Assembly: GCA_964017235.1 (NCBI GenBank)
Contig: OZ024931.1
Coordinates: 124,383,530-124,447,529 of the forward strand
DNA length: 64,000 nt
Source: Sabellastarte sp. h YS-2021
Lineage: Eukaryota > Annelida > Polychaeta > Sabellida > Sabellidae
Direction of reading: 5' to 3'
Part shown: one piece after another, positions 799 to 63,570 of the stretch
Layout of the letters: each line of letters begins with the position of its first letter
Position numbering within the stretch: the first letter of the stretch is position 1
Notes under the pieces: generated by a model
What the model was told of the DNA's origin: nothing
The model's database searches: none
What the model saw: only the letters and a program-made list of their open reading frames with translations
Program-made: the position numbers and the translations under genes

Positions 799-1033
799 AG
801 GGGCCACGGTGGCAGAGTGTTAACACTCTCGCCTCCCACCTCTGTGGCCGGGGTTCGATCCCCGTCATAGCCGTAAGTGGGAAAGCTGGTAGTTGCTTGC
901 CGTTGGTCGGCAGTTTACAGTACACAACCCTAGCGAACTATATGTACTGGTTTCCTCTGCCCTTCCAACTACCCGTCGTGATATGACCTGTACAGTGTTG
1001 AAAGCGACGTAAAACCCCAAATAAACAAACAAA
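799..1033 (+). mobile_element. tRNA-derived SINE (family 1), with target-site duplication
   Basis: The 5' end reads like a tRNA: an A-box-like stretch in the GGCAGAGTGTTAACACTC region and a B box GGGTTCGATCCCC at about 852-864. A conserved central body follows, ending in an AC-rich tail of AAAC units. It is flanked by a 14-bp direct repeat, cccagcgtcattat, at 785-798 and 1034-1047, the mark of target-primed insertion. Three more copies lie on the other strand at 2.8, 39.4 and 44.4 kb. The layout (tRNA head, conserved core, LINE-like tail) resembles the core-domain SINEs described in molluscs. The exact family is not assigned. Confidence 0.88.
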
Positions 1034-1371: not shown

Positions 1372-3410
1372 TCAATGAAATCCTAAAACAAGTGCATAAA
1401 TGTTGAATTTTGAAAAAAAAACACCTGATACTTCTGGCATTGCCATGGTTTTGGCAATATTGGGCAGAATAGAACAGGTAGCTATTAACGTGCATGCTGC
1501 TGTTGGTTCCATCCTGACCTCACCATGCATTACATGCCACCTCTTTAACTGTCCAAATCCTCTTTCAATTACACTTCTAGTTTTCTTATGGGAGCTTAAA
1601 ATAGAAAAATTTTATAACAATCACGAAGTTGCATGATGAAATAATTATTCATGACAATATCAAGATATTGTACTGTATGTTAAGGTAAAAATTAAAAAGT
1701 AAAATTGACTAATACAATTTTGAATGAACAGAGGTACACAACCCTATCTTTTCAGTTTAGTTTGCCTTAAATTTGTTGTTCAGGAACATTACTTCAATTT
1801 ATCCCAACACTAAATACTGTCATTAAACATTTGTTACAATTGGCTGAATTGTGACTAAAAACACAATATACAGTTCAATCCAAACAATGTGGGTATAATC
1901 AACAAAATGTAAAATGACGAAAGGTTCACAATAGGGAAAACAGAAATACATTTATAACATTAATGCGTTACTTAAAAAAAATTAAATTAAAATTTTCAAC
2001 AGCAACATGGATTCACAATGTTTTTATAATTAACAAGTGAGACATTTCCAAGGGCAGGGAATAACATCTGGAAAATTTAAACATGGCAAACATGTGTTCT
2101 CCCCCACAGTGTTGTGTAACATTTCACTTAATAATATATAAACACATTCCACTGAAGGATTACCTTTTTTATCAGTTAGAAAATTCTGCCACAAAAGTAA
2201 AAAAAAACAACTTTCTTTTTCATAATGCACTCTTACAAATTGCTGTCACTTTGATAAAGTTAGCACATGTATGTTATGTTTATATTTACTTCGACTTCAT
2301 TTGCATATTCAAATACGATTTCCTGTAAGCACCTGTTATGTGAAGGTAATTCGAAAGTTTTTCTGTGCACATACTGCAGTTGTTGTTTCTTGGTGCTTTG
2401 AAAATTGGGGGTGGAAGGATGTTAACTATGAATAGCATGTATTTTATGTCTACTGTGAACATACGAACCTATTGTATCTCCTTTCACTGGTATTTTGAGA
2501 ATTTTGGAAAGGTGTAAGCAACCAGTTTTTGTTCGGATACCCACTATCTCCAAGCAGCAGTCCAGAAGGAATTTCACCAGCTTCAAACAAATTCCATAAA
2601 TTTGACATTCTCAAAATCCAGCTGTCATGCATAGAGCCAGGCCACTGTACCACAAGGTTTGTTATCACAATCTTGATTCATAACCATTTGAACATTGATT
2701 GAATGATAACCTTTTCGGTTTACATATGTGGTGCCATAATTCGAATATGAGTCCCATCTATTGCGCCAATGACATTAGGGAAAGATGAAATTTCATAAAA
2801 TCCCTGCTATTTGGGGTTTTTCGTCGCTTTCAACACTGTACAGGTCATATCACGACGGGTAGTTGGAAGGGCAGAGGAAAGGAAACCAGTACATACAGTT
2901 CATTAGGGTTCTGTACTGTAAACTGCCGACCAACAGCAAGCAACTACCAGCTTTCCCACTTGAGGCCGTGCCGAGGATCGAACCCGGCCTCAGAGGTGGG
3001 AGGTGAGAGTGTTACCACTCTGCCACCGTGGCCCCAACAAAGTAATAAACTGGTTGACAATTCTTGAAACTGAAGGCTGTGAAATGCTATTGGTGTCCCC
3101 GATTAACATTTGGAAAGATCCTGTTGCACAAAATCGCAGTGCGGTACAAATTTTCATTGGCAATATATGATATAGCACGAGTTCTGTTACATACAGGACT
3201 CAAGTCATGTTGCAAAAGATTGCATAAGAAAGTCACTCCAGCCTTTGTAAATCTAAATCTCTCATAAAAATCCTTCTCATCAAAAAGTTCCATCGGATTT
3301 GTCCAGTCACGGAAAACACGTTCACATCGCAACTGTCTATTTGCATGCAATTGATACAAAAACATGAAATATGCCATCTTTTTTCTTAAGTTAAGAAAGG
3401 TCTTGACCAT
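1372..3410 (-). pseudogene. HARBI1/Harbinger-type transposase, two exons, frameshifted and split by a SINE
   Basis: Reading leftwards from 3410, the helical N-terminal region has RVFRDWTNP and RFRFTKAGV, then ALRFCATGSFQ and SISQPSVSRIVNQ. The frame is then broken by a SINE (2811-3035) and resumes with FPNVIGAIDGTHIRI, which carries the first catalytic Asp. GDSGYPNKNWLLTP supplies the second Asp. An intron follows (donor after 2469, acceptor before 1594), and joining gives RRYNSSHKKTRSVIER with the catalytic Glu in VIERGFGQLK. The exon ends at a TGA at 1372-1374. At least two small frameshifts lie between the first and second Asp. All three catalytic DDE residues survive, so decay is incomplete. 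It could be a dead Harbinger copy or a decayed HARBI1-like host gene; the intron leaves both open. Confidence 0.85.
2811..3035 (-). mobile_element. tRNA-derived SINE (family 1) inside the HARBI1-like pseudogene
   Basis: Reverse-orientation copy of the SINE at 799-1033. Its tail end reads ttggggtttttcgtcgcttt near 2811 and its tRNA head ends at gtggcccc near 3035. It cuts the transposase between SVSRIVNQFITLL and the FYEISSFPNVIG block. I found no clear target-site duplication. Confidence 0.85.
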
Positions 3411-3571: not shown

Positions 3572-4700
3572 CAGGATTTAAGATACCCAAGGAGAATGTT
3601 ATGATCTATAGTGTCGAATGCACATATATTTATATTTATGTATGTACAAGTGCATCATGTAAAATGGCAAATTTTTCCTCGAATACATGTAATTTGTAAC
3701 GGTTGAGGTAAACATTTTTGTCTAAGCTCAGTTTCCATTTCAGAGTGTACTTATAAACATTAAACAATAGGTTACTTCCATTCTCCTTACATTTATCAGT
3801 GAAATATTTACCAGTTAGTATAACATAATTGATAAGATAACAATGCTTTGGCATGTAGTTAACAAGACCCAAAGTATATTGAGAATAGCAAAATTGACAG
3901 ATATATTGAATAATGTACTCAGCCAATTAGATATTTGGATCCAGAGAAAGTATTCACTTCTTTACAGTAATAAAAGTAATGTTCCAGATTATCTATTTGG
4001 CCACATTAGACACAGTCAGGAGATGGTTTTATGCCCCATTTATGAAGATTGAGATTACATGTAAATACTCTGTGCACAATCTTATATTGTAAAATTATTA
4101 AATAATTGTCCAACAAGATTTTGTAAGGCAGTTGATCCACTGTTATGTAATCTGTAGTGACTGTTTAGGACTCATAGAACTTCAATCAAACTTCAACCTA
4201 TAGGTAAGTCTCATTTAATTTACAATTATACAGAAAAGCAGGATCATAATAATGTCAGAACAAGTGCAAATATAAATAGCGAGGACTATCTGATAGATAT
4301 AATACACAAATGGCCCAGTCAATAAAATTCGCCATCAGCTATTAGTGGACCTGGCATACATCTGGAGTTTGTGCAGCCCCAACCCAAAATACGGACACCC
4401 TTCTTGAAATGCTTACCTCAAATCATGGGTTGATGTCTAGAGTCCTGAGATGTTCCATGTGGATTAGGGCTCAACACTTAGACTGTACCACTGAGGCCTA
4501 GGAACTAAGTTACTATTTGCAGGAATGGGAAAGGTTATTAATTCTGAGGTGTTTTGGTAAAATCATAAATACCTTGCTCACATATTTTGTTTATAATAAT
4601 GTTAATGTTGTCGTTTGCTGTGATAACAGGTCCAATGAACCAATGGGTTTATTGTTTCTATTATCTTGTTCAAACATTAAGTGAAAAAAAATATTGTGAT
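3572..4700. other. Intergenic DNA, no gene seen
   Basis: AT-rich, with short open frames only (69-96 codons) and no recognisable protein or splice structure. It lies beyond the 3' end of the neuropeptide-type gene. Confidence 0.4.
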
Positions 4701-4706
4701 ACATAA

Positions 4707-4712
4707 TTTATT
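4707..4712 (-). promoter_or_regulatory. Candidate polyadenylation signal AATAAA of the neuropeptide-type gene
   Basis: The minus strand reads AATAAA about 157 nt after the TAG stop codon at 4869-4871, a plausible distance for a short 3' UTR. Confidence 0.45.
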
Positions 4713-4868
4713 TCACATTACTTTAGCATAATTAGATATGATGCATAATTTGTCTCAACAAAAAAGTATTTTTTAAATATCTCAATGTCGGTATGTATGC
4801 TGTCTCTGTCGTCATTTTTCAAATTCACTGATGCTAGAATCCTTGTTGGCCAGCTCTTGGAGTGAAAT

Positions 4869-6967
4869 CTACTCATTAGATCTACTCATGTGAACACCCC
4901 ATGGAGTCTGAGCTGGTGTTTCTGCAGCTCTTCTCTTCAGTATTTTGTTATTGCCAAAGGGAGTCTGAGCTGGTGGTGCTGCAACCCTTTTCTTCAGTAT
5001 TTTGTTAACACCCCATGGAGTCTGATCTGGTGTTTCTGCAGCACTTCTCTTCAGTATTTTGTTAACACCCCATGGAGTCTGATCTGGTGTTTCTGCAGCA
5101 CTTCTCTTCAGTATTTTGTTAACACCCCATGGAGTCTGATCTGGTGTTTCTGCAGCACTTCTCTTCAGTATTTTGTTAACACCCCATGGAGTCTGATCTG
5201 GTGTTTCTGCAGCACTTCTCTTCAGTATTTTGTTAACACCCCATGGAGTCTGAGCTGGTGTTTCTGCAGCACTTCTCTTCAGTATTTTGTTAACACCCCA
5301 TGGAGTCTGATCTGGTGTTTCTGCAGCACTTCTCTTCAGTATTTTGTTAGCACCCCATGGAGTCTGAGCTGGTGTTTCTGCAGCCATTCTCTTCAGTATT
5401 TTGTTAACACCCCATGGAGTCTGATCTGGTGTTTCTGCAGCACTTCTCTTCAGTATTTTGTTAGCACCCCATGGAGTCTGATCTGGTGTTTCTGCAGCAC
5501 TTCTCTTCAGTATTTTGTTAACACCCCATGGAGTCTGAGCTGGTGTTTCTGCAGCACTTCTCTTCAGTATTTTGTTAGCACCCCATGGAGTCTGAGCTGG
5601 TGTTTCTGCAGCACTTCTCTTCAGTATTTTGTTAGCACCCCATGGAGTCTGATCTGGTGTTTCTGCAGCACTTCTCTTCAGTATTTTGTTAACACCCCAT
5701 GGAGTCTGAGCTGGTGTTTCTGCAGCCATTCTCTTCAGTATTTTGTTAACACCCCATGGAGTCTGAGCTGGTGTTTCTGCAGCACTTCTCTTCAGTATTT
5801 TGTTAGCACCCCATGGAGTCTGATCTGGTGTTTCTGCAGCACTTCTCTTCAGTATTTTATTAGCACCCCATGGAGTCTGAGCTGGTGTTTCTGCAGCACT
5901 TCTCTTCAGTATTTTGTTAGCACCCCATGGAGTCTGATCTGGTGTTTCTGCAGCACTTCTCTTCAGTATTTTGTTAACACCCCATGGAGTCTGAGCTGGT
6001 GTTTCTGCTGCCATTCTCTTCAGTATTTTGTTAACACCCCATGGAGTCTGAGCTGGTGTTTCTGCAGCACTTCTCTTCAGTATTTTGTTAGCACCCCATG
6101 GAGTCTGATCTGGTGTTTCTGCAGCACTTCTCTTCAGTATTTTGTTAACACCCCATGGAGTCTGAGTTAGTGTTTCTGCAGCACTTCTCTTCAGTATTTT
6201 GTTAACACCCCATGGAGTCTGATCTGGTGTTTCTGCAGCACTTCTCTTCAGTATTTTGTTATTGCCATACGGAGTCTGACCTGGTGGTGCTGCAACCCTT
6301 CTCTTCAGTATTTTGTTAACACCCCATGGAATCTGATCTGGTGAACCTATCACACTTCTCTTTAGTATTTTGCCACCATCACCATATGGAACGTCGACTA
6401 AGGAAAATAAAGGATGTGATTTTGCAAGTTACATTTAAATTTAGGTTTCACTATAAACAGGCTATAAATTGCCATAGCCACTTGGTCTGTTATAGCATTG
6501 CATTGTTAATTTACAGCACAAGTACAGTTCTCATAATATACCTCTTGAAACACCATATATGGAAATCAACTAAACCAGAACATTAGGAATAGAATATATT
6601 TTTGAAACTAAATAATGCATACTTCCATATATAGTTGAAATTGTCTCTGGTGCCAAGTTAAACTTGAAATTGTAGATTTTATCTCACTGCTGACTGATTT
6701 TAATGATGTCACTAATAACTGTTGATATCAAAAGCATAAAGTTTGTTCTGAGAATAAAACCAATTTTGTTTGATGGCATCACTGAATATATTCATATCAG
6801 CACAATACAATTATGAATATTATCACATCAAACATATGGTATTTATGGTTCAAAGTATGTTTAATCTTTGTCTTATTCATTATTTGGATACCTTTAAAGA
6901 TTGCTGTGGCATGGTTCATTAATGCCAATATGGCAAACATCCGTACATGTAGGAACACAGACATCAT
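4869..6967 (-). CDS. Multi-copy neuropeptide-type precursor (unclassified), two coding exons
   Basis: Coding exons 6967-6892 and 6397-4869 join to 534 residues. Exon 1 encodes 25 residues with a hydrophobic core (FAILALMNHATAIF), a typical signal peptide. It is preceded by the acceptor cttttcag at about 6970, so a 5' noncoding exon is implied, and followed by donor AAAG|GTATCC. Exon 2 starts after ttttccttag, and the phase-1 junction matches exactly. After a short leader ending GGKILKR come 25 units of 19 residues plus a final truncated one. The consensus is SAAETPDQTPWGVNKIL followed by Lys-Arg. Residue 7 alternates D/A and residue 13 alternates V/A. No Gly precedes the KR sites, so mature peptides would carry a free C-terminus and would not be amidated. 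The architecture is that of a secreted, convertase-cleaved prohormone. I do not recognise the peptide as any known neuropeptide family. Confidence 0.85.
4890..6345 (-). repeat. 57-bp coding minisatellite (neuropeptide units)
   Basis: About 25 nearly identical 57-bp units, in frame and with no stop. Variation is mostly at two codons (GAT/GCT and GTT/GCT on the coding strand). Units 5-9 and 10-14 have the same order of variants (DA, AV, Met-AV, DA, AA), indicating a recent five-unit, 285-bp duplication. The outermost units (PYGNN and PFGNN types) are the most divergent. Confidence 0.95.
6398..6891 (-). other. Intron of the neuropeptide-type gene
   Basis: 494 nt. Donor GTATCC at 6891 and acceptor CCTTAG ending at 6398, with a pyrimidine-rich tract tttattttcc before the AG. 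Phase 1. No repeat recognised inside. Confidence 0.8.
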
Positions 6968-6969
6968 AG

Positions 6970-9169: not shown

Positions 9170-11545
9170 AGGGTGTTCCACTGGGGCCGACTTGTCAGTA
9201 ACTATAAATTTTTTGAGAAATGTTTACAGAGTTGGTTAGGACCGGTTGTAATTGCACGGCTTGTCACGTTGGATTGGAAAAATATCAAACATGTTTGATA
9301 TTTCATGGACCCACCCTGACTCTGTCTCCGGACCTTGAAACCGTCCTGTCATGAATCTCTATGGTTTCTCAGACACACTTGTCGTCTTGTTCTATATTGC
9401 AAACCATCTTGTCTGGAAGCACTTCTCGTACACACCAAACCGGCCTGTTGTAAAAAACCCAAAAAAACAATTGGACCTCAAGAAGTCGGAAAGACTTTGC
9501 GTTACAAGAATTTTTGACATTATTTTTGAATGATTTTGACCCTTGGATCAGACCTTCTCAGTTTTGACTTTTGAGAAAATTTTGAAGTTCTCCAAAGATT
9601 TTGATAGTTTAGAAAGTTTTAAAGTTTGCCAGATAAAGATGCTTAAAAATTATATTTTCAATGAGTTTCAATGTGCGACATTTTTTTAGACCTTGTGTTG
9701 AGGGATTTGTGATTTGGTTGGAAATAGTTTTGAAACTTGTTGGAATGTATTAGATTTTTATTTTGGAAATTTATAGGAAGCAACATCGGCTCAAATAAAA
9801 GTTCTTGGAATAATTGGGTGGTCCTGAAAAGGTCTGATAGATGCCAGCTTCTTCTGTCCCCAAGGTAGCATCGCAGATCCTGTCTTATTGTCAAGCCATT
9901 ACACTCACATGATTGAAGCTGTCTTTCAGTAGGTCTCGCTGATGTTTGGTTTCCCTCAATTCCTGTAATTGTCATCTGGCACGTACACCACCTGTTCATT
10001 TTGTAGGGCCGCTACATTATTTGCTGGGGTGGGTGCTCTGTCTGCCAGGCCCTGGTGTGTCCTCAGCGTGTTGTGCGACACCACAAAACAATGTTTCTGA
10101 CAACCTTTGGCCGTTTCTCCCTGGTGCCCAGTAGTACCCTAAATCTGCTCACTAATATTCCAAATGCATTATTCACCATCCACCTGCCGCTGGAGATCCT
10201 GTAGTTTGCTGTTCTCTCTTCCCTTGTGAGTTGTCTTCTGCTGTAGGGTTTCACCATCCATGGTATCAAGGCAAAGGCATCGTCACCCAGCAAGAAATAG
10301 TGCAAATCTGGTCCTCCGTCCCCCATCGGTTCAAGTGGTGGAAGCATCAAGGTGCCCGATGAGGATCCACTTGATCCAACATCTACCTGGAGGAATTTGT
10401 ATTCTCTGTTGAACAGAGTTAGCAGCACCAGGGAAAAAATCCCTTGTAGTTGCAATGTTCACTCCCAGATTTCTATGGCTTCTTCATAGCGATATGTTTC
10501 CCAGCTGGTGCCCCTACAGCATGGGGATATTCCATCTGGTTCTAAACTTCTCCCTCACATTTGTCCAGTCTTCGGGTTTAGTAGGGCAGGACAAATACTC
10601 TTCCTCGAATTCATCAAAGATGGCTCGGCAGACCTGGGGGACGAATTTACAGATGGTGGTTTGGCCAACCAGCCAGTGTTACTGCAATGAGTGGTATATC
10701 TTTCCTGTTGTCAGCTGTCTCAGTGTTATTGCCAGTTTCAACCCAACTTCTAAGGGCTTCTTTAAATGGGTCACTGACTCCTTGATGCCGTGGCATATGC
10801 GTTCCTCAATGAGGTAAAAAAGGCAGGTGGCCTGGTAATTCTGGTAACCTGGGGTATCAGCCTGTGTTAAGTTGACCGGGAGGTTTCTGTAGCATCCTCT
10901 TTCTTCTCTTTGAAGTATCCATGGCATGAAACAGGGGTTTGGTGGCTTTCTTCTTCTCCTGGGTGGTGGCTGTTGCTGTGGTGAAGGTGTTCCCTGTAGG
11001 GCAGGTGCTGGTCCTGGGTTCAGAATTGTCCTTTTCTGTCTACATATCATGATGATGATCAAAATATTAAAATCAATAAAAACAAAAGTACCCTAAGCTT
11101 CTGTAGATGTGTAGTTGGCATCTCTGCAGTGATAAGTGATAATTTACAGCAGCCAGAAGGGGTTTATATAGTATGGATTTGATCCTAACTCTCGATCCTG
11201 ACTCCAGAAATTAATCAGTCAGGGTGTGTTGGGAAAATGCTCCAGTCCTGCCAGTTTGTAAGTATGGCTTGTCGGGGGCTGATATGGCTTGTTTGTTAGG
11301 GGTTTACAGCTTGTCCTGGTGGCTTCCCATCTAGTGGTGGAGAGAAACATCCCGACCCCAAGTCAGGTCGGGATCTTGATGCAGACAAGCTAGGTTGCAC
11401 TATGTCCTGTTGGGGAGGTGAAACTGACCCAAAATTTTCACACGATTTTGTTCTGGCTTATGCTTTTGGATCCCTGACTTTGGCAAGCGACCCTAGAGAG
11501 TCGTAGAGTCAATTATAGTGTTGGTTCCAGTAGAACAGCCCCTTA
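9170..11545 (-). mobile_element. Harbinger-type DNA transposon (copy 2)
   Basis: It encloses the transposase pseudogene. The candidate ends are inverted: gggtgttccactgg at about 9172 and, read in reverse, ggctgttctactgg ending near 11544. No clean 3-bp TAA-type duplication is seen at these ends, so the borders are approximate. A palindrome atcaaacatgtttgat at about 9288 is shared with the short element at 30407-31126. Confidence 0.6.
9840..11062 (-). pseudogene. Harbinger/PIF transposase (DDE_Tnp_4-like), degenerate
   Basis: In order on the minus strand: a Pro/Arg-rich leader; a helical N-terminal region with ERICHGIKESV and GLKLAITLRQLTTGKIYHSL; the first catalytic block as GAPAGKHIAMKKP; then EYKFLQVDVGSSGSSSG, LLGDDAFALIPWMVKPYSRR and WMVNNAFGILVSRFRVLL; then a degraded C-terminus. 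Family members normally read DGKH in the first block and VENAFG in the third. Here the first Asp is Ala and the Glu is Asn, so two of the three catalytic acids are lost, while the second Asp (GDDAF) remains. Frame changes occur near 10680-10450 and after 10063. It is an inactive relic. Confidence 0.85.
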
Positions 11546-37700: not shown

Positions 37701-39091
37701 TGATTGCATACTTAACATAGTAGCCTTTACTTGTTTACATTAAAACCTTTTTTAAATGCAACCCTGTCAAAAACACACACAAAAAGGACTTTTTTCTATA
37801 CATTTTAGAAGCTCTTGATCTCCTTCACGACTCTTGTTCTTTTGAGTACCAAGTGTATGGTGACTCACCATGGTGTGCATCTTTTATCAAAGAAGATTTG
37901 GAAGTGTATGAATATGCAGAAGACATCCAGTATCATTGGACAGATGGCTACGGGGATTCTCTGAACTATGAACAAACGTGTGAACTCCTCAAAGATATTG
38001 TTCATTATCTCAGGTACCTTTCTTTGCAACTTGACAAGCATCAATCAATCAATCAATCAGTTAATCTGATGACAAAGCTGCACAGATAAATAAATAGGGA
38101 AATGAGACATGTCTTTTAATGTACTTGAACTGGTGGTTCATTATAATCATCATTGCCCAAATGACTCGATCACATGATATAGTCCCTGACATCATTAGTA
38201 GTAATTTGACTTATCTGTTTCAAACTAGCTTATGTCTCCTTTCTCGGGCATATGTTAAAATACTTATTATATATTTTTCTGATTCAGACTTGATGAAAAA
38301 GAACCTGATCCAGCCTATAGAGTGCTAACCAGGTTTGCCCATTCAGGAGCTCTGTTCATGCTCTATGCCAGGCTGGGTTTGTTCAACGATGGGTACAACC
38401 TCACTGATTCAGGTTATGAAGAAAGCAAAGACAGGATGTGGAGGGCCAGTCTTATCAATCCTATGTCTGGGAATATAGCATTCGTCAGGTGAGTATGGGC
38501 TGGATGATATTTTTCCAAAGTGGAGGTTCTCTTGTGTGGGATAGTGTGTATATATATTTTTAAAATGTATAATACACAATATAATAATAAAACCTGTTGC
38601 TAAAATAATAAAATGTGGAGTAACAACTCATTTTTTCCATATAAATGTCAATGACAAATTGCTGTTTTGTGTACAATATTTGCTGTGAGATCACATTCCA
38701 AGATAGATATCTCTTTCCAAATTTTGTTAGTGATATTTTATTATATTATATCCTTAAAATAGCAATATTTATGAAATTTAAAATAAATTTTAAATGTGTA
38801 CTTATGAGAAATTCAGTGTAAAAGTGATGCTTCTGACATAATTTCAGGTATACTTGCACCAATGGAGAAGAAGATAAGGTTGCTGTATATGAAAATGAGG
38901 CACTGATTACGCTTCCTGTTTCGGGCTGTACCGATGGGATTTGTCCTGTCAGTGCACTGATCGATGAATGGGTACCTATAACCAGCACATGTGACATCCA
39001 TGACATCTGTAATGTTGAAAATAGTTCTGCCACAGAACTGACTGCATCATGTACAGCACTCTTTGTAAGCTTGATGTTATTGATAATTTGA
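31769..39091 (+). CDS. MINPP1-like: Multiple inositol polyphosphate phosphatase-like protein (MINPP1 family), nine exons
   Basis: Coding exons: 31769-31964, 32556-32675, 33116-33229, 34241-34378, 35151-35233, 36732-36837, 37809-38013, 38288-38488, 38848-39091. All have GT-AG borders and matching phases and sum to 1407 nt, 468 residues; human MINPP1 is close to this length. The N-terminus has a signal-peptide-like hydrophobic stretch, then FYTTETRYDVV. Exon 2 holds LLARHGSRYP, the histidine-phosphatase RHGxRxP nucleophile motif. Later blocks match MINPP1 in order: FYENCEKYLD, NGPEIAEVLGRI, CSFEYQ...SPWC, YHWTDGYGDSLNY and the LINPMSGNIAFV type. The family removes phosphates from InsP5/InsP6 in the ER or outside the cell. 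The proton-donor motif HAE reads HSG in FAHSGALF. The last 15 residues are hydrophobic and could be a GPI signal. Confidence 0.93.
32561..32596 (+). other. Histidine-phosphatase active-site motif (RHGSRYP) in exon 2
   Basis: It reads PSVFYLLARHGSRYP in the frame fixed by the exon 1 phase. The other two frames of this exon contain stops or no similarity, so the 93-codon open frame that spans it (32412-32693) is not the coding frame. Confidence 0.9.
33285..33560 (-). mobile_element. CR1-like LINE 3' end, in intron 3 of the MINPP1-like gene
   Basis: Reverse complement of the same 3' end as at 18290-18590: the WNxLP-type block (ggaatggaacag region), ttagaagccaac, then ctatacaaatgcttct and an (AAT)n tail at about 33283-33300. 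5'-truncated. Confidence 0.75.
33832..33905 (-). mobile_element. SINE family 3 fragment in intron 3
   Basis: Contains gttcagtagccagggtcat and ggacaggcccttggcatt, like 16497-16630 and 44260-44400. Confidence 0.5.
33925..34165. repeat. Degenerate 60-bp minisatellite in intron 3
   Basis: About four copies of a unit containing ctatttaaaagctgtgtgat followed by attac-tataaaactgaatt, spaced 55-65 bp apart, with many substitutions. Confidence 0.75.
35605..35815 (-). mobile_element. 5S rRNA-derived SINE (SINE3 type), copy 2, in intron 5
   Basis: The minus strand reads gaagttaagtggcagtgggc, then tagtactggaatgggtgacc, the 5S rRNA A- and C-box region, followed by the body shared with 20871-21060 (ctggtactagtagaccgaaa region). 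More diverged in the C box than copy 1. Confidence 0.82.
38039..38062 (+). repeat. (ATCA)n microsatellite in intron 7
   Basis: About five tetranucleotide units, just after the exon 7 donor. Confidence 0.85.
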
Positions 39092-39389: not shown

Positions 39390-39619
39390 TTTGTTTATTT
39401 GGGGTTTTACGTCGCTTTCAACACTGTACAGGTCATATCACGACCGGTAGTTGGAAGGGCAGAGAAAACCAGTACATATAGTTCGCTAGGGTTCTGTACT
39501 GTAAACTGCCGACCAACGGCAAGCAACTACCAGCTTTCCCACTTACGGCCATGACGGGGATCGAACCCCGGCCGCAGAGGTGGGAGGCGAGAGTGTTACC
39601 ACTCTGCCACCGTGGCCCC
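39390..39619 (-). mobile_element. tRNA-derived SINE (family 1) just downstream of the MINPP1-like gene
   Basis: Complete reverse-orientation copy with a perfect 18-bp duplication tttgtaaccattaataaa at 39372-39389 and 39620-39637. The B box reads gggttcgatccccg-like on the minus strand. Little diverged from the copy at 799-1033, so probably a young insertion. Confidence 0.93.
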
Positions 39620-44432: not shown

Positions 44433-44662
44433 TCAATTTTATTTATTTGGGTTTTTATGTTGCTTTCAGCACTGCATAGGTCATATCACGACGGGCAGTT
44501 TTATAGGAAGAGGAAACCAGTACATACAGTTGGTCAAGGTTCTGTACTGTAAATTGTTGACATCTGTAAGAAACGATTAAACTTTCCCACATAAGGTCCA
44601 GGGTTTGAATCGCCGGCCTTCGATGGCAGGAGATTGTGTTACCACTGTGCCATCATTGCCCC
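44433..44662 (-). mobile_element. Degenerate tRNA-derived SINE (family 1)
   Basis: Clear but diverged copy: ttatttgggtttttatgttgcttt at the tail side, cacgacgggcagtt in the core, and a decayed tRNA head near 44600-44662. Older than the other three copies. Confidence 0.8.
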
Positions 44663-50130: not shown

Positions 50131-53100
50131 TCATGTACTGAAAATGGCATAACTCACAATAACTATACATATGTTTCTATTTTCACTTAAATAATTCTGA
50201 CAAGGTATACCTAATATTATATGCTTAAGGGTAATATTTAGCTTGAGACAATTGCTCAGTATACACCAAATATGTTTCATCCTTGGACAACTGTACAACA
50301 GATGACTAATATCTTCTGATTCACCACAGAAAGTACATTTTGTTGAGGAACTTTTCCCCCATTTTCCTAGCTTTTCCCCACAGGGCAGTATATTTAGCAA
50401 TATTTTGTACTTAAACTCTGAAAATTTTTTGTATCTGAGTGTCTTAAAATTGGTGAGATAAATATTTTCCCAGTCATTTTTATTTATTTCAGCCTGAAAT
50501 TTCCTTTGCCACATGTATTCTGTGTATGGTCTTTCAGTTTTTTTGCCCAAAAGTACCACATATATTTCTTTGGAATTAATTTCATTTGGATTGAAAATTT
50601 TTGTCTTTGTGCATAATGTTAATTTTTGGTAAAGTGAAACTTGGGTAAACCTACATACACTAGTGTCACAATGCCTCAGGGCATTTTTGCTGATAATGTT
50701 TTTCAAAATAAAGACTTCACTCATCCAGTTAGTTTTAACTGTTAGTTTCTGTAATATGTTATGTTCTGATATAAAAGAGCCATCGTGTTCAACAAGATCT
50801 TTTACATGTAAAAACCCACTTTCTAACCAGTTTTTGTAATAAAGACATTTGCCTTTTGATTTGAAATATTCATTACCCCACAATGGCTGTGACAGAATTT
50901 CTACAGTATTCAACTTGTTAATTGGTCTTATAGTTTTACACAAGTTATAAGATATTATAATTTGCTGATAGAAAGGTGGTACCTTTAAGAATACCCCAAA
51001 CTCGTCAATTTTGCGAAAGTTCATTTTTAGAAGTAGGTTTGTGGTAATAGACATTTTTGCAAGATACATGTTAAGTATTTCAGCTATTGAACTTTCTTCA
51101 TTCAGAAGCTTTGGAATCCAGGAGGTTTTTAAAGCATGATGTTTTGTAACAATGTCTATCATGTTTAGGCCTCCATCCCTAGAAGTAGCAATAACAATGT
51201 TTTTTTTTAATTTATGAGTTTTGCCCCATAAGAATTTGAAAAGCATTCCATCTAATTTTTTCATTATATGAGTCGGTGTATATAATATTGTCAAGTTGTA
51301 TATCAACCTAGGAACAATAAGATTGTTGATCACAACTATTTTACCATAATATGTTAATGTCCTACTGCTCCAGATTAACAGAAGCTTTTCAATTTCACTT
51401 ATTTTCTTCTCCCAGTTCCATTTCTCACACTCCTTTTGATCTGTTCCTACATAGATACCTAGACATTTCACTGGACATTTTGAAAACTTAACTCCTTCAA
51501 ATATATTTGGGTTATGCTTTAAAGCACCAAGCCATATGCCTTCACATTTGTCTACATTCAGCTCTAGCCCAGAAATTGTTCCAAATTTTTTTACTCTTTC
51601 CAATGCATTGATAACTGACTGTTCATTTTCTAGGGTCAAAGTTGTGTCATCTGCATATTGGGTAAGTTTTGTTGTTTTTTTTAAAAGTTTGATACCGTTT
51701 ATATCATTTGCTTCCCTGATTTCAATGGCTAGGAATTCCACGGCAAGTATAAATAGCAGTGCTGAGACAGCACAGCCTTGTCTGATACCTCTGGCCATTT
51801 GTGATTCACTAGAAATCCACCCATTATTTTTCACACTAAATGTTGGTTTGTTATATAAAATTTCTATCCAATGAATAAACTGCTTACCAAAGCCATATTT
51901 TTTCAGACAACCAAACATAAAATTCCAGTCAAGACTATCAAAAGCCTTTTTAAAATCCAAACAGATTATTGCACCTGGTTTATTACCATCTTCACAATAT
52001 TGTATAATATCGTCTATTAACCTTGCACTAAAACCAATGTATCTATTTTTAATATATCCACTTTGATCACAGGAAATTAGGTTAGGAATAACTTTTTGGA
52101 GACGTTTTGCAAGGACAAATGTTAAGATTTTATATTCGCAATTTGTAAGACTAATCGGCCTGTAGTTTTTTAATAAAGCCTTATTGCCTTTCTTGAAAAT
52201 TAGTGTGATTATAGACTTCCGCATACTATCAGGTAAAATACCTTTGCAGAAAGTTTCATCAATCATTCTCATATAAAGGGGTTCAATTTGATTCCAGAAA
52301 ACTTGATAAAATTCAGGAGTGAGACCATCACTACCTGGTGACTTATCCTTTTTTAGATTACTAATAGTTTCACGCACTTCTTGAGTTGTAAGTGGACTCT
52401 CGCATAATCTAAATTGTTTGTCATTTAAGGATTTCACTTCGGTAAATTTGCTTAAATATTCATTTATTGTGTCAACAGATATATTTGTCTTCCTATATAA
52501 ATTGCTGTAAAATTTTAAGGCAGTTTTTAAAATTTCTCGATCATTTTCAATTTCTCTCCCTTCATCACAAATTTTTGTGATAACATTGCCAGTTTGCCGT
52601 TGCTTTTCAATGTTTAAAAAATATTTTGATGGGATGTCACCCTCCTCAACCCATTTAATTCGTGCTCTTATACATGAGCCTTTTGCTTTTAGATTAAAAA
52701 AGTTCCTTTGTTTACTTTCAAGTTCTGACTTGAGTAAATTATTATATTCTAATAGCTTTCTATCATTATCATTTAAACTATCTTTGGTATCCAAGGTAAG
52801 GATAGTTTTATTAACCTTGTCTAACTGATTTTGAATGTCCCAGATAAGCTGATATGATTTTAGATACTGATATTCTTGCGAAGTTTCAGCAATGATTTCT
52901 TTGACTCTATCATTATATTCCTTGTCATTTAGGATGCTATTATTAAGTTTCCAGTAACCTGGACCCTTTTTATGTAGGTTAATTTTGAACGATATCTTCA
53001 AGGCAGAGTGATCTATGACTCCTGGATTTTTAATGGGTTGTGTCACTGCATTATTTTGTAATTCATATGTCATATCTTGGGATATAAGGATGTAATCAAT

Positions 53101-53730
53101 CCTACTGTAGCTATTGGATTTTTTGTCATAATAAGTATAGCCAGGTGTGTTTGGATTGGTAAGTAACCAACTATCTTTTAGTTTACATTTTAATAGTAGT
53201 TTTTCAAACAAATCAACACTTTTGTCAACTTTTCTAGCAGTAGGGAATCTGTCTGATCCATGTAGACAGCAATTCATATCCCCTGCGACAATAACATTTT
53301 GTAGGTTATCTGCATATTTCAAAATCCATTGGGTTAATTTTTCAAAGAAAAACCCCCTCTCCCCTTCACTTGTTGGTGCATAGACCGAGACAATAGTAAA
53401 TATAGTATCATGTATTTGGACATTTATAAGTAGGATTCTACCATCATTACTTGAAAAACTGCTGATAACATCACCCTTAAAGTTTTGTTTGAACATTACA
53501 GCCACTCCTCTACTATGACTGGAGTCAGTCAGAGATAATAAAACACTTCCTTTCCAACTAGCCTTAAAATAGGGTTCAAAAGTTTTTGTACAAAAAGTTT
53601 CTTGCAGACAAATTATATCATATTTTTCATTTTCTAGCCATGAGAATAGCTTTTGCCTTTTGTTGTTATCATTTAAACCACGGCAATTATAGGATATTAC
53701 TTGTAGATTATTTGTCATTGTTCTTTTCAA
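50131..53730 (-). CDS. LINE C ORF2: APE endonuclease plus reverse transcriptase, 1199 codons
   Basis: Makes the nick and copies the element RNA into the target. Residues 1-240 are an APE-type endonuclease: ISYNCRGLN, CLQETF, SVYAPTSEGE, AGDMNC, SRIDYILIS and a final IDHSAL. The reverse transcriptase has KDKSPGSDGLTPEF, LIFKKG...NYRPISLTN, LDFKKAFDSLDW (about 596), GIRQGCAVSALLF, the catalytic YADDTT (about 692) and CLGIYVG. A C-terminal zinc motif CTFCGESEDISHLLYSC sits at about 1130. It overlaps ORF1 by 23 nt in another frame, so translation must start internally or by re-initiation. The stop at 50131 looks secondary: the same frame stays open for about 46 further codons. Otherwise intact. 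Confidence 0.93.
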   Translation of the reverse strand: MKRTMTNNLQVISYNCRGLNDNNKRQKLFSWLENEKYDIICLQETFCTKTFEPYFKASWKGSVLLSLTDSSHSRGVAVMFKQNFKGDVISSFSSNDGRILLINVQIHDTIFTIVSVYAPTSEGERGFFFEKLTQWILKYADNLQNVIVAGDMNCCLHGSDRFPTARKVDKSVDLFEKLLLKCKLKDSWLLTNPNTPGYTYYDKKSNSYSRIDYILISQDMTYELQNNAVTQPIKNPGVIDHSALKISFKINLHKKGPGYWKLNNSILNDKEYNDRVKEIIAETSQEYQYLKSYQLIWDIQNQLDKVNKTILTLDTKDSLNDNDRKLLEYNNLLKSELESKQRNFFNLKAKGSCIRARIKWVEEGDIPSKYFLNIEKQRQTGNVITKICDEGREIENDREILKTALKFYSNLYRKTNISVDTINEYLSKFTEVKSLNDKQFRLCESPLTTQEVRETISNLKKDKSPGSDGLTPEFYQVFWNQIEPLYMRMIDETFCKGILPDSMRKSIITLIFKKGNKALLKNYRPISLTNCEYKILTFVLAKRLQKVIPNLISCDQSGYIKNRYIGFSARLIDDIIQYCEDGNKPGAIICLDFKKAFDSLDWNFMFGCLKKYGFGKQFIHWIEILYNKPTFSVKNNGWISSESQMARGIRQGCAVSALLFILAVEFLAIEIREANDINGIKLLKKTTKLTQYADDTTLTLENEQSVINALERVKKFGTISGLELNVDKCEGIWLGALKHNPNIFEGVKFSKCPVKCLGIYVGTDQKECEKWNWEKKISEIEKLLLIWSSRTLTYYGKIVVINNLIVPRLIYNLTILYTPTHIMKKLDGMLFKFLWGKTHKLKKNIVIATSRDGGLNMIDIVTKHHALKTSWIPKLLNEESSIAEILNMYLAKMSITTNLLLKMNFRKIDEFGVFLKVPPFYQQIIISYNLCKTIRPINKLNTVEILSQPLWGNEYFKSKGKCLYYKNWLESGFLHVKDLVEHDGSFISEHNILQKLTVKTNWMSEVFILKNIISKNALRHCDTSVCRFTQVSLYQKLTLCTKTKIFNPNEINSKEIYVVLLGKKTERPYTEYMWQRKFQAEINKNDWENIYLTNFKTLRYKKFSEFKYKILLNILPCGEKLGKWGKSSSTKCTFCGESEDISHLLYSCPRMKHIWCILSNCLKLNITLKHIILGIPCQNYLSENRNICIVIVSYAIFST

Positions 53731-54865
53731 TTATGCTTTCCTTCAGAGTTACCAATAATTTACCCATCTTGTTCTTTCCGGGCCATACACCCCTTTTGAC
53801 GGTCAAGCACTGCTCTTTCGTAAGTCCAGTAGACCAAAACAAGTCCCCTGGAACAGCTTCAGCAATCACCGTATCAGAGTTTAGAAGTGCCTCACAGAAT
53901 TCCGGACAGCCGTTGGACTTGGCACGAAGAACCTGCTCCATAACCTTCTCTTTCTCATCTATCCAGTTTGGGTTGAAAGGAAGAAAGCTGGCTTCAACTT
54001 TGGCTTGATATGCACTCTTTGCCTCAAGGATTCTTTCAGCAATTTTATCCTTTCCAGTCTGGATTGCCTTAGAATACTGATAGGCATGCTCAGAGGACCT
54101 GTGTGACATCCCGAAGACCTTGATTTCACAAGGGTAGAAGTTACTGAGGGGATCTGCCTTTCCTGCAAAAGCTGTTACATGTTTCAGCTGTTGCTTTGCA
54201 GTTCCTGAACACTCTTTATCCCCTGGGCCATGATTCTTCCCCTTGCAGACTATACAACAGGGCTCACTCGTGCATTGTTTTCTGTAGTGGCCATCCTGGT
54301 GACAGTTTGTGCAGTATTTATTACTGGGACTTGGCTGATCTCTGTGGAAGATCCTGACACTTGTGTCTCCTATCCAAGTTTTTCTTGGCAAGGGATCATC
54401 AAAACTGTCCACAAATACAATGCGCTCACCATTTAACCAGTCTGTCAACTCATTATTTTCATTCCTTGCTTTTGCAAACTCAACTTTCCCCCTTAGTTTA
54501 ATACCCTGGGTAATCAAGTATTGTTCAATGCCTTTGTTTCCCTTTGATAGGGGCAAGTCCTTGATTGTTACTTTCATAACACTTTGGTCTGTTTCCCCCT
54601 CAGCCAGTCTTGCTCTCATTGGATTGTTGTTGAACACATTCACACAATGGTCTCTAATTTCCACCTTGTTGGCAAGAACTGTTACCCTGGCCTCTTTAGT
54701 TTTCAGGTATATTCTCCACAACATGCCAATTCTTTGAACACCCAACAGGCTGTCCTTCTTAATCCTTTTGCAAACTGCCTCACATAGTTCATATTCTTTC
54801 AAAGTCTTGAAATCAGGTATTTCTCCAGCCTTCACAAACACAGGGTCCACTTTTGGTAATTCCAT
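53708..54865 (-). CDS. LINE C ORF1: RNA-binding protein with zinc knuckles and a C-terminal NADAR domain
   Basis: 385 residues, intact. Residues 1-180 resemble the N-terminal region of Tx1-type ORF1 proteins. Two CCHC knuckles follow: CTNCHQDGHYRKQC (185-198) and C204-C207-H212-C219, expected to bind nucleic acid. Residues 232-376 match the NADAR/YbiA (DUF1768) fold: DPLSNFYPCEIKV, SSEHAYQYSKA, FNPNWIDEKEKVMEQVLRAK, EAVPGDLFW, and GKNKMGKLL. NADAR proteins act on ADP-ribose-type N-glycosidic bonds (YbiA acts on riboflavin intermediates, others remove ADP-ribose from nucleic acid), with the conserved Ser-Asn-Phe, Glu-His and Trp blocks present here. What a retrotransposon gains from it is unknown. 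Confidence 0.9.
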   Translation of the reverse strand: MELPKVDPVFVKAGEIPDFKTLKEYELCEAVCKRIKKDSLLGVQRIGMLWRIYLKTKEARVTVLANKVEIRDHCVNVFNNNPMRARLAEGETDQSVMKVTIKDLPLSKGNKGIEQYLITQGIKLRGKVEFAKARNENNELTDWLNGERIVFVDSFDDPLPRKTWIGDTSVRIFHRDQPSPSNKYCTNCHQDGHYRKQCTSEPCCIVCKGKNHGPGDKECSGTAKQQLKHVTAFAGKADPLSNFYPCEIKVFGMSHRSSEHAYQYSKAIQTGKDKIAERILEAKSAYQAKVEASFLPFNPNWIDEKEKVMEQVLRAKSNGCPEFCEALLNSDTVIAEAVPGDLFWSTGLTKEQCLTVKRGVWPGKNKMGKLLVTLKESIIEKNNDK

Positions 54866-56019
54866 AATTCTTCTTTGTTAGGCAAAAAAAAACACTTCCT
54901 AGGTGTTAATTAATGTCTTTGTGGTGCAGAGGTTCTAAGCACTGTGTACACAATTCACTAATTAACTTATACAATCTATCTTCAGAAAATGTTTAAATAT
55001 TTCACAGTTTTCAGATTTTTTTCATCAAAATGATCATAATATACAAGTCAAAAATATGAAAATTATATATCCACAGATTCTGTGCAGTATTATGCACAAT
55101 ATGGTATAATTTTGAAAGCCAGAAACTAAATTATCCTTGTTCAAAAAAGAAAAAAAACTCACAGTAAGGTGTATGAAGTTGATGCTTGACAGGAATATTG
55201 GTTGGGTTGAAAATCATGTCCTTAGAAACAAATGGTGTACTACACTAAATATTGATATTAATGAAAAAGATTGGGAACAAATCTACAAAATTTGCTTCAA
55301 AACATTGCAAATAAACAACCTAGTTTGGTTCCAATATAGAATTATCCACAGAATTCTGGGAACTCATTCATATATGAGAAAATTAAAGATCAGTGCCACC
55401 TCTTCATGTAGATTTTGTAATACATGTGAAGAGACATTGATTCATTTATTCACATCCTGCCCTGTCGTCCTGGAATTTTGAAACAATTTAAAGAAATGGC
55501 TCCAGCAGCAATTCAATTTATACCTGGACCTAAGTCCGCACACAATTATATTTGGTGTCCTAGAAATGGACATTGACTTTTTCGCAAGAAACTGTGTTAT
55601 TCTCATTGCAAAAAAATTCATTTTTGATAGTGCAAGAAATGCCAAAATATTAAGTACTATGAGATTCAGAGCCTACTTCAAATGTATCCTCACTGACCAG
55701 GAATTTATATCAAAAATAAATTGCTGTACAGAAAAATTTCAGGCAAATTGGTCGTTGTTTAAAAATCTATGAGTAACCAATTAGCCTTGTCCTTCTGTAC
55801 TGTTTAAGTATTTGTCTTCTTTATTATTAAATGATTTACCCATGTCAGTCATGTGTTTGCTTTTGTACTTCTTTCTTTAACTTTCTTTATGCTATTAGAG
55901 TGTAAACATTTTCTGCTTTCTTTCGATGTTATGTGCTTAAATTGATTTTCATGTATGCTGTTTGTATATACATTTTTGTTTTTTCAAAAATAAAAATTTA
56001 AAAAAAAAGTTCGTTGGGC

Positions 56020-57814: not shown

Positions 57815-57975
57815 TGAGCTTGTTAATTGAATTTAGTAGATATCCTCTGTTAAGACATTGGGTTTCATGTAAGCTTAGCCATTTGCTTTATGTATTCTTC
57901 TGCTAGGCATTTCTGTGCTTTTATTTATGCCTTGATTCATTGAATTAAAAACAATTGATAAAAATTAAATTTAGA

Positions 57976-59639
57976 ATGGAGAGAGAACGTTATTTAGAGA
58001 TAATGCTGTTTTGGATATTTAATATCCAGTGGGCCAATGTAAATTGTGCTGTGGAACAGTATACATTGATAACATCACACAACTGTGATGGGAATGACAG
58101 GATTCTTACTGATCTTTATGAGCCACATCAAAACCATATCATCTGTGAAGGGATTTGCACATGGTATGAGCCTTGTGTTGCTTTTGTATTAGAAACCAAA
58201 GATGGCTTCACCTACTGTCACATTAAGTGTAAATGTGAACCTAAACCAGACACTGCTGTTTTCAAGGTATACATGAAAGACCAGACTATTCTGTACAGAC
58301 CAAATAAATTGAGTGATTCTTGGCTGGTGCACACTAATACTAGTACAAATGGTGTTGCCTTAACATCATTCTACAGTGGGAGTGAACTGGACTGCATATT
58401 TTTGTGTCTATTTCATGAAGGAGATTGTGTTGGCATTAATCAGTACCATGTAGATGGAGAAACTAACCAAGGACTGTGCATTCTACTGCAAAAACGCATT
58501 ACGTTACAACCAAATCCAAGAATGAACACTATATGGATAGATAAAAATCCCTTGCAGGTCATCACTAACTATCTTGAATCTTCTACTAAATTTGCTTCAC
58601 ACACCTGTAGTCATTTGGTTATTAAGCACCACATAAGTACCATGACATTTCTTCATACTTATGTGTGTGCTGAAACCTGTATTCACAGACACAAATGTGT
58701 AGCTTTCACAGTAAATCTGGATGATTGAAAAGATCTTGCAATCCTGGTAACCTGCAAAGCAATGCTAACCATGATGCTTACATTATAAAAGCTAAAAATA
58801 TGGTTACATCAAAAGGTACCAACCATTATGCTTTGTTCACTGATAGACTTATGACAAAATTAGAAGCCCAAAATGAATGCTTGGCTGTTGGTCGCCATGT
58901 GGTTGCCCTGGAATCAGAATCAGAATTTAATGATTTTAAAGTTTTAATCCAAGTTTATGCCATACTCACCACCCCAATTTGGACAAGTCTGGATCTGAGT
59001 TACAAGGCCTGGCAACTAGATGTTATTGATGGTAGTAATCACAGTACAGCTGCTCTATCTTGGACTCTTCCATGGAGCAAAACTCATCCAATTTTAAATA
59101 TGAGGTATGGGCTCCTGAATCAAACATCAAGTGAGTTTATCAGTGATGATGGGACTATGAAAGCTTATGTAGTATGTGAAGGTTATGGGCCATTCAAGGT
59201 ATATGGATCTCAGGAGATAGATGTAGATGGGGAGGATGGAATGACACTTTTAACAAACATAAATAATGGCTTTGTTGATTGCATGACAGTAAGTGACAGA
59301 AATCCGGTTGGTGCAGAGTACACCTTTGAATTACCAACTTTCACACCAGATGCCAACACCCTTCTTGTAAGGATCAGTGGGTCTAAACCATTTGGGGAGA
59401 ACAAGCAGCATTTCTCTTTGATGTTTGCAAAGAGTCTTACATATACTTCAGATGGAAGAAATATTCAAGAGGCATACTATGGACACTGTCAATGGATTAC
59501 TGAATTTTCTTGGGACAACCTTGAAGAAGGCAAAATGTTTTCAACTTTGCAATTTCATTGTGAATGTGGACACCAGTGTTCCAAATTGTATCTTAAATTC
59601 TTCAAAGATGTTCTCATATGTGATATATCTATTCCATAA
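57976..59639 (+). CDS. Secreted PAN/Apple and C-type-lectin-like protein, intronless, one frameshift
   Basis: The first ATG at 57976 starts a signal peptide (LEIMLFWIFNIQWANVNCA). Three PAN/Apple-like, Cys-rich modules follow (starting SHNCDGN, FYSGSELDC, ASHTCSH). The first frame ends in TGA at 58726-58728 after AFTVNLDD. The next frame resumes at once as KRSCNPGNLQS, completing the third module. Losing one base near 58726 explains this. The second frame gives a C-type-lectin-like domain (LEAQNECLAVGRHVVALES, IWTSLDL, AYVVCE) lacking the inner Cys pair and calcium-binding motifs. An unclassified C-terminal region of about 150 residues ends with a CECGHQC cluster. A role as a secreted adhesion or recognition protein is inference. 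Pseudogene or sequence error cannot be separated here. Confidence 0.75.
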
Positions 59640-62454: not shown

Positions 62455-63570
62455 AAAGTTCTATTTCATCCTGCTGTTTTTCTCATGGTAGGAATAGACT
62501 CCCTTAATGAATTTGTTAGTGTAGTTACCGGAATACAGCCTAATATACTATATCCTGTTAAAATATGTATTCATTAATTAATAATTTTGGTGTCATCCAT
62601 AACAAAGATAATTGAAGTTAAAAGGTATGACAGGTATATTCTTATGGCCTGATCACACTGTGTATGCCCTGTGTCAATATAATTCACCATTCTTCCTTGT
62701 ACCACCAAACTTCTGTGATAAATCTTGCATGTAAGAATCAAATCATGCATACCCAGTTAAAAATCATGCCTACATGTATTAGCAATAAATTTATAAAAAT
62801 CTGATAGCATTATATAACTAGTTCCATCATGGATATCTTGTAATATTTATAAACAATAAACTGACAAAATAATGTGTGCACATTTGAATTTAAAAAAAAA
62901 ATCCTTTTTTAGATCTTACTTAATAAATTGTGTTATTATTTTTCCAAGAGAAATATTTGGTTTAGCGAAGCAGCTGAAAGATTCTAATCAATGAAGCTTA
63001 CTCTGCTTTGTTATGAGCTATGTGTATAATAACAAATGGTATGTATATATTTTGATAATCCAAATTATTAGTTCTTATATCTATTGAAAATATGCTGCAG
63101 TGATTCATATTACACACAAAACACACTGAAATTGTGGAAGTATTCAGTGTACTCTAACGTTATATAAGGCAGTTAGAAATTCGAATAATGTTGCTACAGA
63201 TTTTTTCAAAAAACGTAAATATTTATCTTGTTATAGTTAGTAACCAATTTGGCCATAGTTTATGTCATTTTGTAAAATAAACTAAAAAAAATGTAAACAC
63301 AAAAGAAAACAGTTTTCTGCTTTCCTCCCTCTGTACAGAGATGATAAGAGGAGCACCTGCTTGTGTCTGTTATCTGTCAAGATGTATAATATTACTGTGT
63401 ATGGGTAGAGATTGGATCATTTACACATCTATAGGCTGCAGTTTATGTGTGGCCTGCCATCATCTTTGTGTGTATATGTATGTTAATAACATGCATGGTA
63501 GCTTGGCATGCAGTTTTGGATTGATCTGGCGTGGGCTTGCACCCCACGAGTGTCAGTTAGCTTTAATGTA
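62455..63570. other. AT-rich intergenic DNA, no gene seen
   Basis: A 76-codon frame at 63341 has no recognisable similarity and lies next to the repeat array. Confidence 0.4.

Follow-up and report, generated by a model that had tools for sequence, protein, structure and literature searches.

A predicted multi-copy precursor of non-amidated peptides in the annelid Sabellastarte sp.

A tandem repeat that stays open in one reading frame may encode a secreted precursor from which many similar peptides are cut, may encode a repetitive protein that is used whole, or may be open by accident. The question arises for a 57-base repeat on the minus strand of contig OZ024931.1 of the sabellid polychaete Sabellastarte sp. 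h YS-2021 (assembly GCA_964017235.1), within a stretch of 64,000 nucleotides that we refer to as the window. A preliminary description had proposed an unclassified neuropeptide-type precursor for this locus. We considered whether the gene model, the structure of the array and comparison with known peptide families bear out that proposal.

Gene model, peptides and genomic surroundings

The proposed gene has two exons (Table 1). The coordinates of its start codon (6967), the end of its stop codon (4869) and its candidate intron (6891-6398) check out, and with the predicted splice the reading frame runs unbroken from exon A into exon B to give a product of 534 aa. The acceptor tract of exon A is 87% pyrimidine, and its donor, GTATCC, is weak. 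Ten GT dinucleotides occur in the open frame that begins at 6967, and the one at 6891 is the only one in phase 1, as needed by the acceptor at 6397. Among nine AGs listed near the start of exon B, three (6397, 6346 and 6337) require phase 1, and a pyrimidine-rich tract precedes only 6397. Given the predicted splice, MMSVFLHVRMFAILALMNHATA scores as an N-terminal signal peptide in a rule-based test. The product is of low complexity and rich in Ala, Pro, Thr and Lys, with no Cys and only 2 Tyr.

Table 1. Features of the predicted precursor gene (positions in the window)
Feature	Position	Strand	Remarks
Exon A	6892..6969	-	acceptor ...ttcttttcag/CT; ATG 6967; 25 codons plus one base; donor AAAG/GTATCC
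Predicted signal peptide MMSVFLHVRMFAILALMNHATA	6902..6967	-	predicted cleavage after A-T-A; rule-based test
Predicted phase-1 intron	6398..6891	-	494 bases, gt...ttccttag; from sequence only
Exon B, repeat region and stop codon (4871-4869)	4869..6397	-	
Unit 1, degenerate: VDVPYGDGGKIL-KR	6357..6397	-	intron splits first codon
Unit 2: SVIGSPDQIPWGVNKIL-KR	6300..6356	-	
Unit 3, divergent: (R)VAAPPGQTPYGNNKIL-KR	6243..6299	-	
Units 4-25, 22 copies: [S/M]AAETPxQTPWG[V/A]NKIL-KR, x = D or A	4989..6242	-	
Unit 26, divergent, near twin of unit 3: (R)VAAPPAQTPFGNNKIL-KR	4932..4988	-	
Unit 27, C-terminal remnant: (R)AAETPAQTPWGVHMSRSNE	4872..4931	-	without cleavage site
AATAAA polyadenylation signal	4707..4712	-	157 bases past stop; second AATAAA starts at 4653

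TRF reports the 57-base unit in 26.0 copies over 4889-6372, with 93% matches and 0% indels. By translation the array comprises 27 units with P[WYF]G (24 with Trp, 2 with Tyr and 1 with Phe), and in 26 of them KIL is followed by two or three basic residues (KR, KRR or KKR). Because Leu precedes that site, no amidation Gly is present in any of the 26 units that have one. Exceptions within units 4-25 are unit 5, with LT for Px, and unit 25, which ends in KK, followed by R. Unit 27 has lost its core and closes with the C-terminal end HMSRSNE. Processing at the basic sites is predicted to release 25 peptides, 23 with 17 aa and two with 16 aa, the latter having the form VAAPP[G/A]QTP[Y/F]GNNKIL (units 3 and 26). 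Computed monoisotopic masses of the predicted peptides include 1825.92, 1797.89, 1781.93, 1753.90 and 1636.89 Da; two of the peptides, MAAETPAQTPWGVNKIL (1825.940) and SAAETPDQTPWGVNKIL (1825.921), are near-isobaric at 0.02 Da apart. The complete peptides have a net charge of about -1 to +1 and contain no Cys.

Most of the preliminary description survives this inspection, with amendments. The signal exon is indeed in phase with the repeat exon, and the absence of amidation is upheld for all 26 sites. The figure of about 25 copies of a 17-residue peptide is right in number, but two of the 25 predicted peptides are one residue shorter. A basic site after every unit, said to be KR throughout, is found as a di- or tribasic site in all units save unit 27, and the same unit lacks NKIL-KR; unit 1 is degenerate. 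The middle of the peptide was called acidic; position 7 in units 2-27 is Asp in 13 of 26 cases, but Ala in 11, Thr in one and Gly in one.

Several other elements lie in the window. Pieces of a DDE_Tnp_4 transposase, presumably of Harbinger type, flank the peptide gene at 1375-2677 and 10066-10458, both on the minus strand, and the frames on the left side are interrupted. The region 3566-9275 matches nothing elsewhere in the window at E <= 1e-3, save the array against itself, and so is not apparently part of a local transposon. At 37809-39091 (+) are exons, with ends placed by eye, of a spliced gene resembling branch 2 of the histidine phosphatase superfamily, which we take to be possibly MINPP1-like; its His_Phos_2 match (E 0.00033, 20.6 bits) is just under the cut-off of 23.6. 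Two long overlapping frames occupy 57952-59639 (+); the first matches a PAN domain weakly and below cut-off (E 0.032), and either an intron or a frameshift may account for the change of frame. A dispersed repeat of 220-230 bases is present in four copies, at 800-1023 (-), 2808-3035 (+), 39396-39619 (+) and 44444-44662 (+), which are 74-91% identical to the copy at 2808-3035; the copy at 39396 includes a tRNA-like GATCGAACCCC stretch, and the element is probably a SINE. A LINE at 50131-54877 (-) encodes an ORF2 of 1199 aa (endonuclease, reverse transcriptase and zf-RVT) and, upstream, an ORF1 of 389 aa with a NADAR domain (E 1.1e-20). In the part of the source consulted, an ORF1 with NADAR is described for Tx1 LINEs of the Pacific oyster, Crassostrea gigas, and the domain also for some Gypsy elements of the brown alga Ectocarpus (PMC12477816). 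With its spliced gene, transposase pieces and LINE the window has an animal character; the NADAR ORF1 makes a lophotrochozoan origin plausible, but given the algal case it does not point to one species.

Database searches and known peptide families

The precursor has no match above threshold in Pfam, NCBIfam or PDB. A Pfam match to STPRs (E 0.00013, 22.7 bits against a gathering score of 27) was dismissed as a repeat artefact. Three shorter fragments compared with Pfam gave only Inovirus_capsid in two (E 0.42 and 0.13) and nothing in the third, and NCBIfam gave only PRK10057.1, below cut-off at E 7.5. Rfam at its gathering score and a tRNA scan were empty, and bacterial promoter and terminator predictions are not applicable here. 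The one tblastn match in IMG/VR, to locus L001 (E 9e-5), was rejected as chance because it lies antisense inside a 613-aa frame that, judged from its sequence, we took for an RNA phage replicase. IMG/VR gave no match to the degenerate back-translated pattern, and a scan of prokaryote genomes matched three stretches, none of which was confirmed. The prokaryote, phage, plasmid and viral negatives carry little weight because those collections are not of animals.

Short motifs were also sought in the literature. TPWG had no match in the literature on neuropeptide precursors, and among the matches listed for NKIL in the neuropeptide literature none is molluscan by title. Matches to motifs of 5-8 letters in papers on Plasmodium, imaging and frog foam are unrelated to judge by title and abstract. 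The main texts of PMC8557429, PMC6425005, PMC4200219, PMC5996578, PMC8398477, PMC3890597, PMC4990251, PMC4408573 and PMC7737342 have no match to PWG. When KIL, PWG, PFG, PYG and close variants were sought in the same main texts, the relevant match in the text available was the name PFGx8amide (PMC4200219, PMC5996578); the main-text negative is weak because most precursor sequences sit in supplements. The status of the peptides as orphans is thus provisional, based as it is on profile libraries and main-text motif searches.

Known families were compared by inspection of their published descriptions, taken here from excerpts. The pedal peptide/orcokinin precursors likewise have a signal peptide and carry numerous non-amidated peptides of comparable length, set between cleavage sites, as in starfish ArPPLNP2 with 13 copies of 19-mers (PMC5814872); multiple non-amidated peptides are equally predicted here, with Leu rather than Gly at the basic site. 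The family is defined in the excerpt by hydrophobic Phe, Leu or Met at one N-terminal and two C-terminal positions (PMC5814872). By inspection our consensus has Leu17 alone, although Trp, Val or Ile might substitute. The FDSIG or [F/L]DRLGSG motif of the excerpted descriptions (PMC4990251, PMC5814872) is absent, and the constant part is instead the C-terminal PWGxNKIL. The FCAPs are likewise lophotrochozoan and multi-copy, are usually of 13 aa, and appear without an amide in the scallop list as excerpted (PMC5996578, PMC6425005). Scallop FCAPs, however, resemble SLDRLGGAFIHGY or MLDRLGSGLI (PMC5996578), a motif that is absent here, and the FCAP core as excerpted, LDxLGG / xDRxGxG, is absent by inspection from all 27 units.

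Oyster PFGx8amide, compared here by name only, is counted among repetitive precursors and would, by its name, contain a Pro-Phe-Gly core; the present units have five residues after P[WYF]G and lack an amidation Gly. More generally, the Gly before the basic site that marks the amidated molluscan families (APGWamide, FMRFamide, myomodulin, PFGx8amide and others) is found in 0 of 26 units. The WI peptides of Platynereis, grouped here with MIP, are non-amidated and contain Trp, but the WI/MIP pattern as excerpted has two Trp, in W-x6-7-W-[G/I/L] (PMC3890597). The W-x6-7-W motif does not occur here, as 24 units have one Trp and three have none. Fungal Kex2-processed repeat proteins and alpha pheromones also have a signal peptide and near-identical repeats with KEX2 sites between them, and in the excerpt consulted the authors themselves note that fungal KEX2-processed proteins resemble animal neuropeptide precursors (PMC6339444). 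Those proteins are fungal, whereas introns several hundred bases long occur in the window, as does a LINE whose ORF1 carries NADAR as in oyster.

The motifs of the families compared are therefore wanting, in line with the preliminary description, but the label 'unclassified' is to be read as provisional, since the comparison was made by inspection of excerpted descriptions. Its statement that the copy number is unusually high is not supported. FCAP precursors in molluscs have 6-28 copies, with 28 in Lottia (PMC6425005, in excerpt), and scallop precursors have 24 copies for FMRFamide and 21 for FCAP1 (PMC5996578, in excerpt), so that the array falls within the known range.

Array history, chance and alternative readings

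When units 4-25 are typed by positions 1, 7 and 13, types recur at a lag of five units in 8 of 17 comparisons, and every other lag from 1 to 11 gives 0-5 matches. The recurrence at lag 5 suggests that blocks of about five units were duplicated within an older array while the array ends escaped homogenisation. Units 2, 3 and 26 carry 8, 11 and 11 changes from the consensus, those of units 3 and 26 being mostly shared; all 30 fall in codons 1-13, which leaves codons 14-19, those that encode NKILKR, unchanged. Unit 1 retains KILKR with one synonymous change, in its Leu codon. Elsewhere the NKILKR codons have one change each in units 10 and 25, of which one is synonymous and one turns Arg to Lys. 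Over 26 of the 27 copies (unit 1 being too short and unit 27 included), there are 62 non-synonymous and 10 synonymous changes and 2 that pass through a stop intermediate, counts that shared ancestry inflates. Mutation alone would give about 71% non-synonymous, 25% synonymous and 4% stop, and by this comparison the copies give no sign of purifying selection on the protein. The invariance of KR could therefore be due merely to recent duplication. The evidence for constraint is positional, namely that the changes in units 2, 3 and 26 lie outside the NKILKR codons; as the clustering extends to third positions, exchange between copies may explain part of it.

Openness of the array by itself is weak evidence for a coding function. 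When 5000 random 57-mers of the window were treated as tandem units, 91% had at least one open frame, 31% were open with a dibasic site and 11% open with KR; for 5000 dinucleotide shuffles of the unit the figures are 98, 30 and 10%. Two of the six frames of the consensus unit are open, and an antisense frame at 4866-6170 (+), with 434 open codons of Trp/Cys-rich repeat, spans most of the array and was taken as a shadow frame of the 57-base unit. These figures would suit a non-coding tandem repeat that is open by chance, a reading that is nonetheless very improbable given the matching signal-peptide exon, the well-placed position of the only phase-1 GT in its frame, the acceptor, the polyadenylation signal and a reading frame that divergent end copies retain. 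Against chance the signal exon adds most, being more informative than the open frame. A rule-based scan of both strands of the window for in-phase signal-peptide-like exons found 41 candidate ATGs, 20 of them on the minus strand; in core hydrophobicity exon A ranks only 17th of the 41. Seven minus-strand ATGs, two of them within exon A itself, have a donor score of at least 4, and with seven on the whole minus strand one would fall by chance in the 600 or so bases upstream in roughly 5-7% of cases. An added demand for a pyrimidine-rich acceptor no more than 10 bases from the ATG, a filter picked post hoc with the result known, retains two exons on both strands, exon A and one at 63341 (+). If the unfiltered figures are multiplied as if independent, the probability that this array is due to chance comes out near 1%.

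A coding array might still not be a source of peptides. The gene could encode a secreted repetitive structural or matrix protein, such as those of mucus, glue, shell or egg coat, whose repeats contain KR without being cut there; the low-complexity composition and the failure to see purifying selection among copies would fit, as would an AlphaFold2 model with roughly one strand to each unit. That pattern is of low confidence. For exon B alone (508 aa, single sequence) the mean pLDDT is 44 and every residue stays below 70, far below what a real solenoid needs, and the hint of a beta solenoid was dropped; such a value fits an unfolded pro-chain and lends no support to a folded repeat protein, with the caution that single-sequence AlphaFold2 models are often poor. 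We consider a structural protein improbable, as a di- or tribasic site after KIL is retained even in divergent end copies, only two Tyr and no Cys occur among 534 residues, and STPRs, the sole Pfam match at E <= 0.01, is under its gathering score and does not recur with any of three shorter fragments. Two further readings overlap with a prohormone. A strongly diverged true member of the pedal peptide/orcokinin or FCAP families would share the common architecture of signal peptide, many copies, intervening cleavage sites and non-amidated peptides of about 13-19 residues, but it is unlikely, because by eye FDSIG, [F/L]DRLGSG, LDxLGG...HGY and the three Phe/Leu/Met positions of the excerpted descriptions are absent from all 27 units. 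Exocrine peptides (pheromone, antimicrobial or venom-type) from a multi-copy precursor are less easily set aside, if still doubtful, since any KR-processed repeat precursor has the same anatomy, which in the excerpt consulted is common to fungal KEPs and alpha pheromones (PMC6339444). The predicted net charge of about -1 to +1 and the lack of Cys would speak against a typical cationic antimicrobial peptide and a typical disulfide toxin alike.

Predicted processing and significance

The repeat, its frame and phase, the cleavage sites and the absence of an amidation Gly can be read directly from the sequence. We favour, with a probability of roughly 0.8, the interpretation of the gene as a predicted secreted, convertase-processed, multi-copy peptide prohormone, because of the in-phase gene model with its signal peptide, phase-1 intron, pyrimidine-rich acceptors and polyadenylation signal, and because of the basic site that follows KIL in nearly all units and is kept in divergent copies. 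The likeliest use of the peptides is a putative neuropeptide role. What had been proposed at the outset thus stands for the architecture of a secreted, multi-copy, non-amidated precursor and for the lack of a match to the families compared, whereas neural use and unclassified status did not carry over at the same strength.

In the mechanism that we propose, the signal peptide would direct the 534-aa chain into the secretory pathway, where, to judge from the anatomy of the precursor, a subtilisin-type prohormone convertase would cleave after the KR, KKR or KRR that closes each unit and carboxypeptidase E-like trimming would strip the basic residues. The expected products are some 25 peptides, each 16-17 residues long, non-amidated and sharing the C-terminal core P-[W/Y/F]-G-x-N-K-I-L. 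They would most likely be released by neurons or by secretory cells of another kind to signal through a receptor that is probably a GPCR. Within the array, unequal exchange in blocks may have enlarged and homogenised the middle, and the end copies would have diverged in their N-terminal half with the core retained.

Genes of this kind are already well known, so the value of the present one lies in its unmatched sequence. Tentatively, and at somewhat under even odds, the peptides may represent an undescribed, lineage-restricted non-amidated family that is defined by this core, has about 25 similar copies per gene and acts on a receptor without a paired ligand. If the peptides are made, SAAETPDQTPWGVNKIL and its variants, for which exact masses are given above, would be a concrete ligand for orphan peptide receptors, and the array would be a clear case of an increase in peptide dosage through expansion, with divergent copies remaining at both ends.
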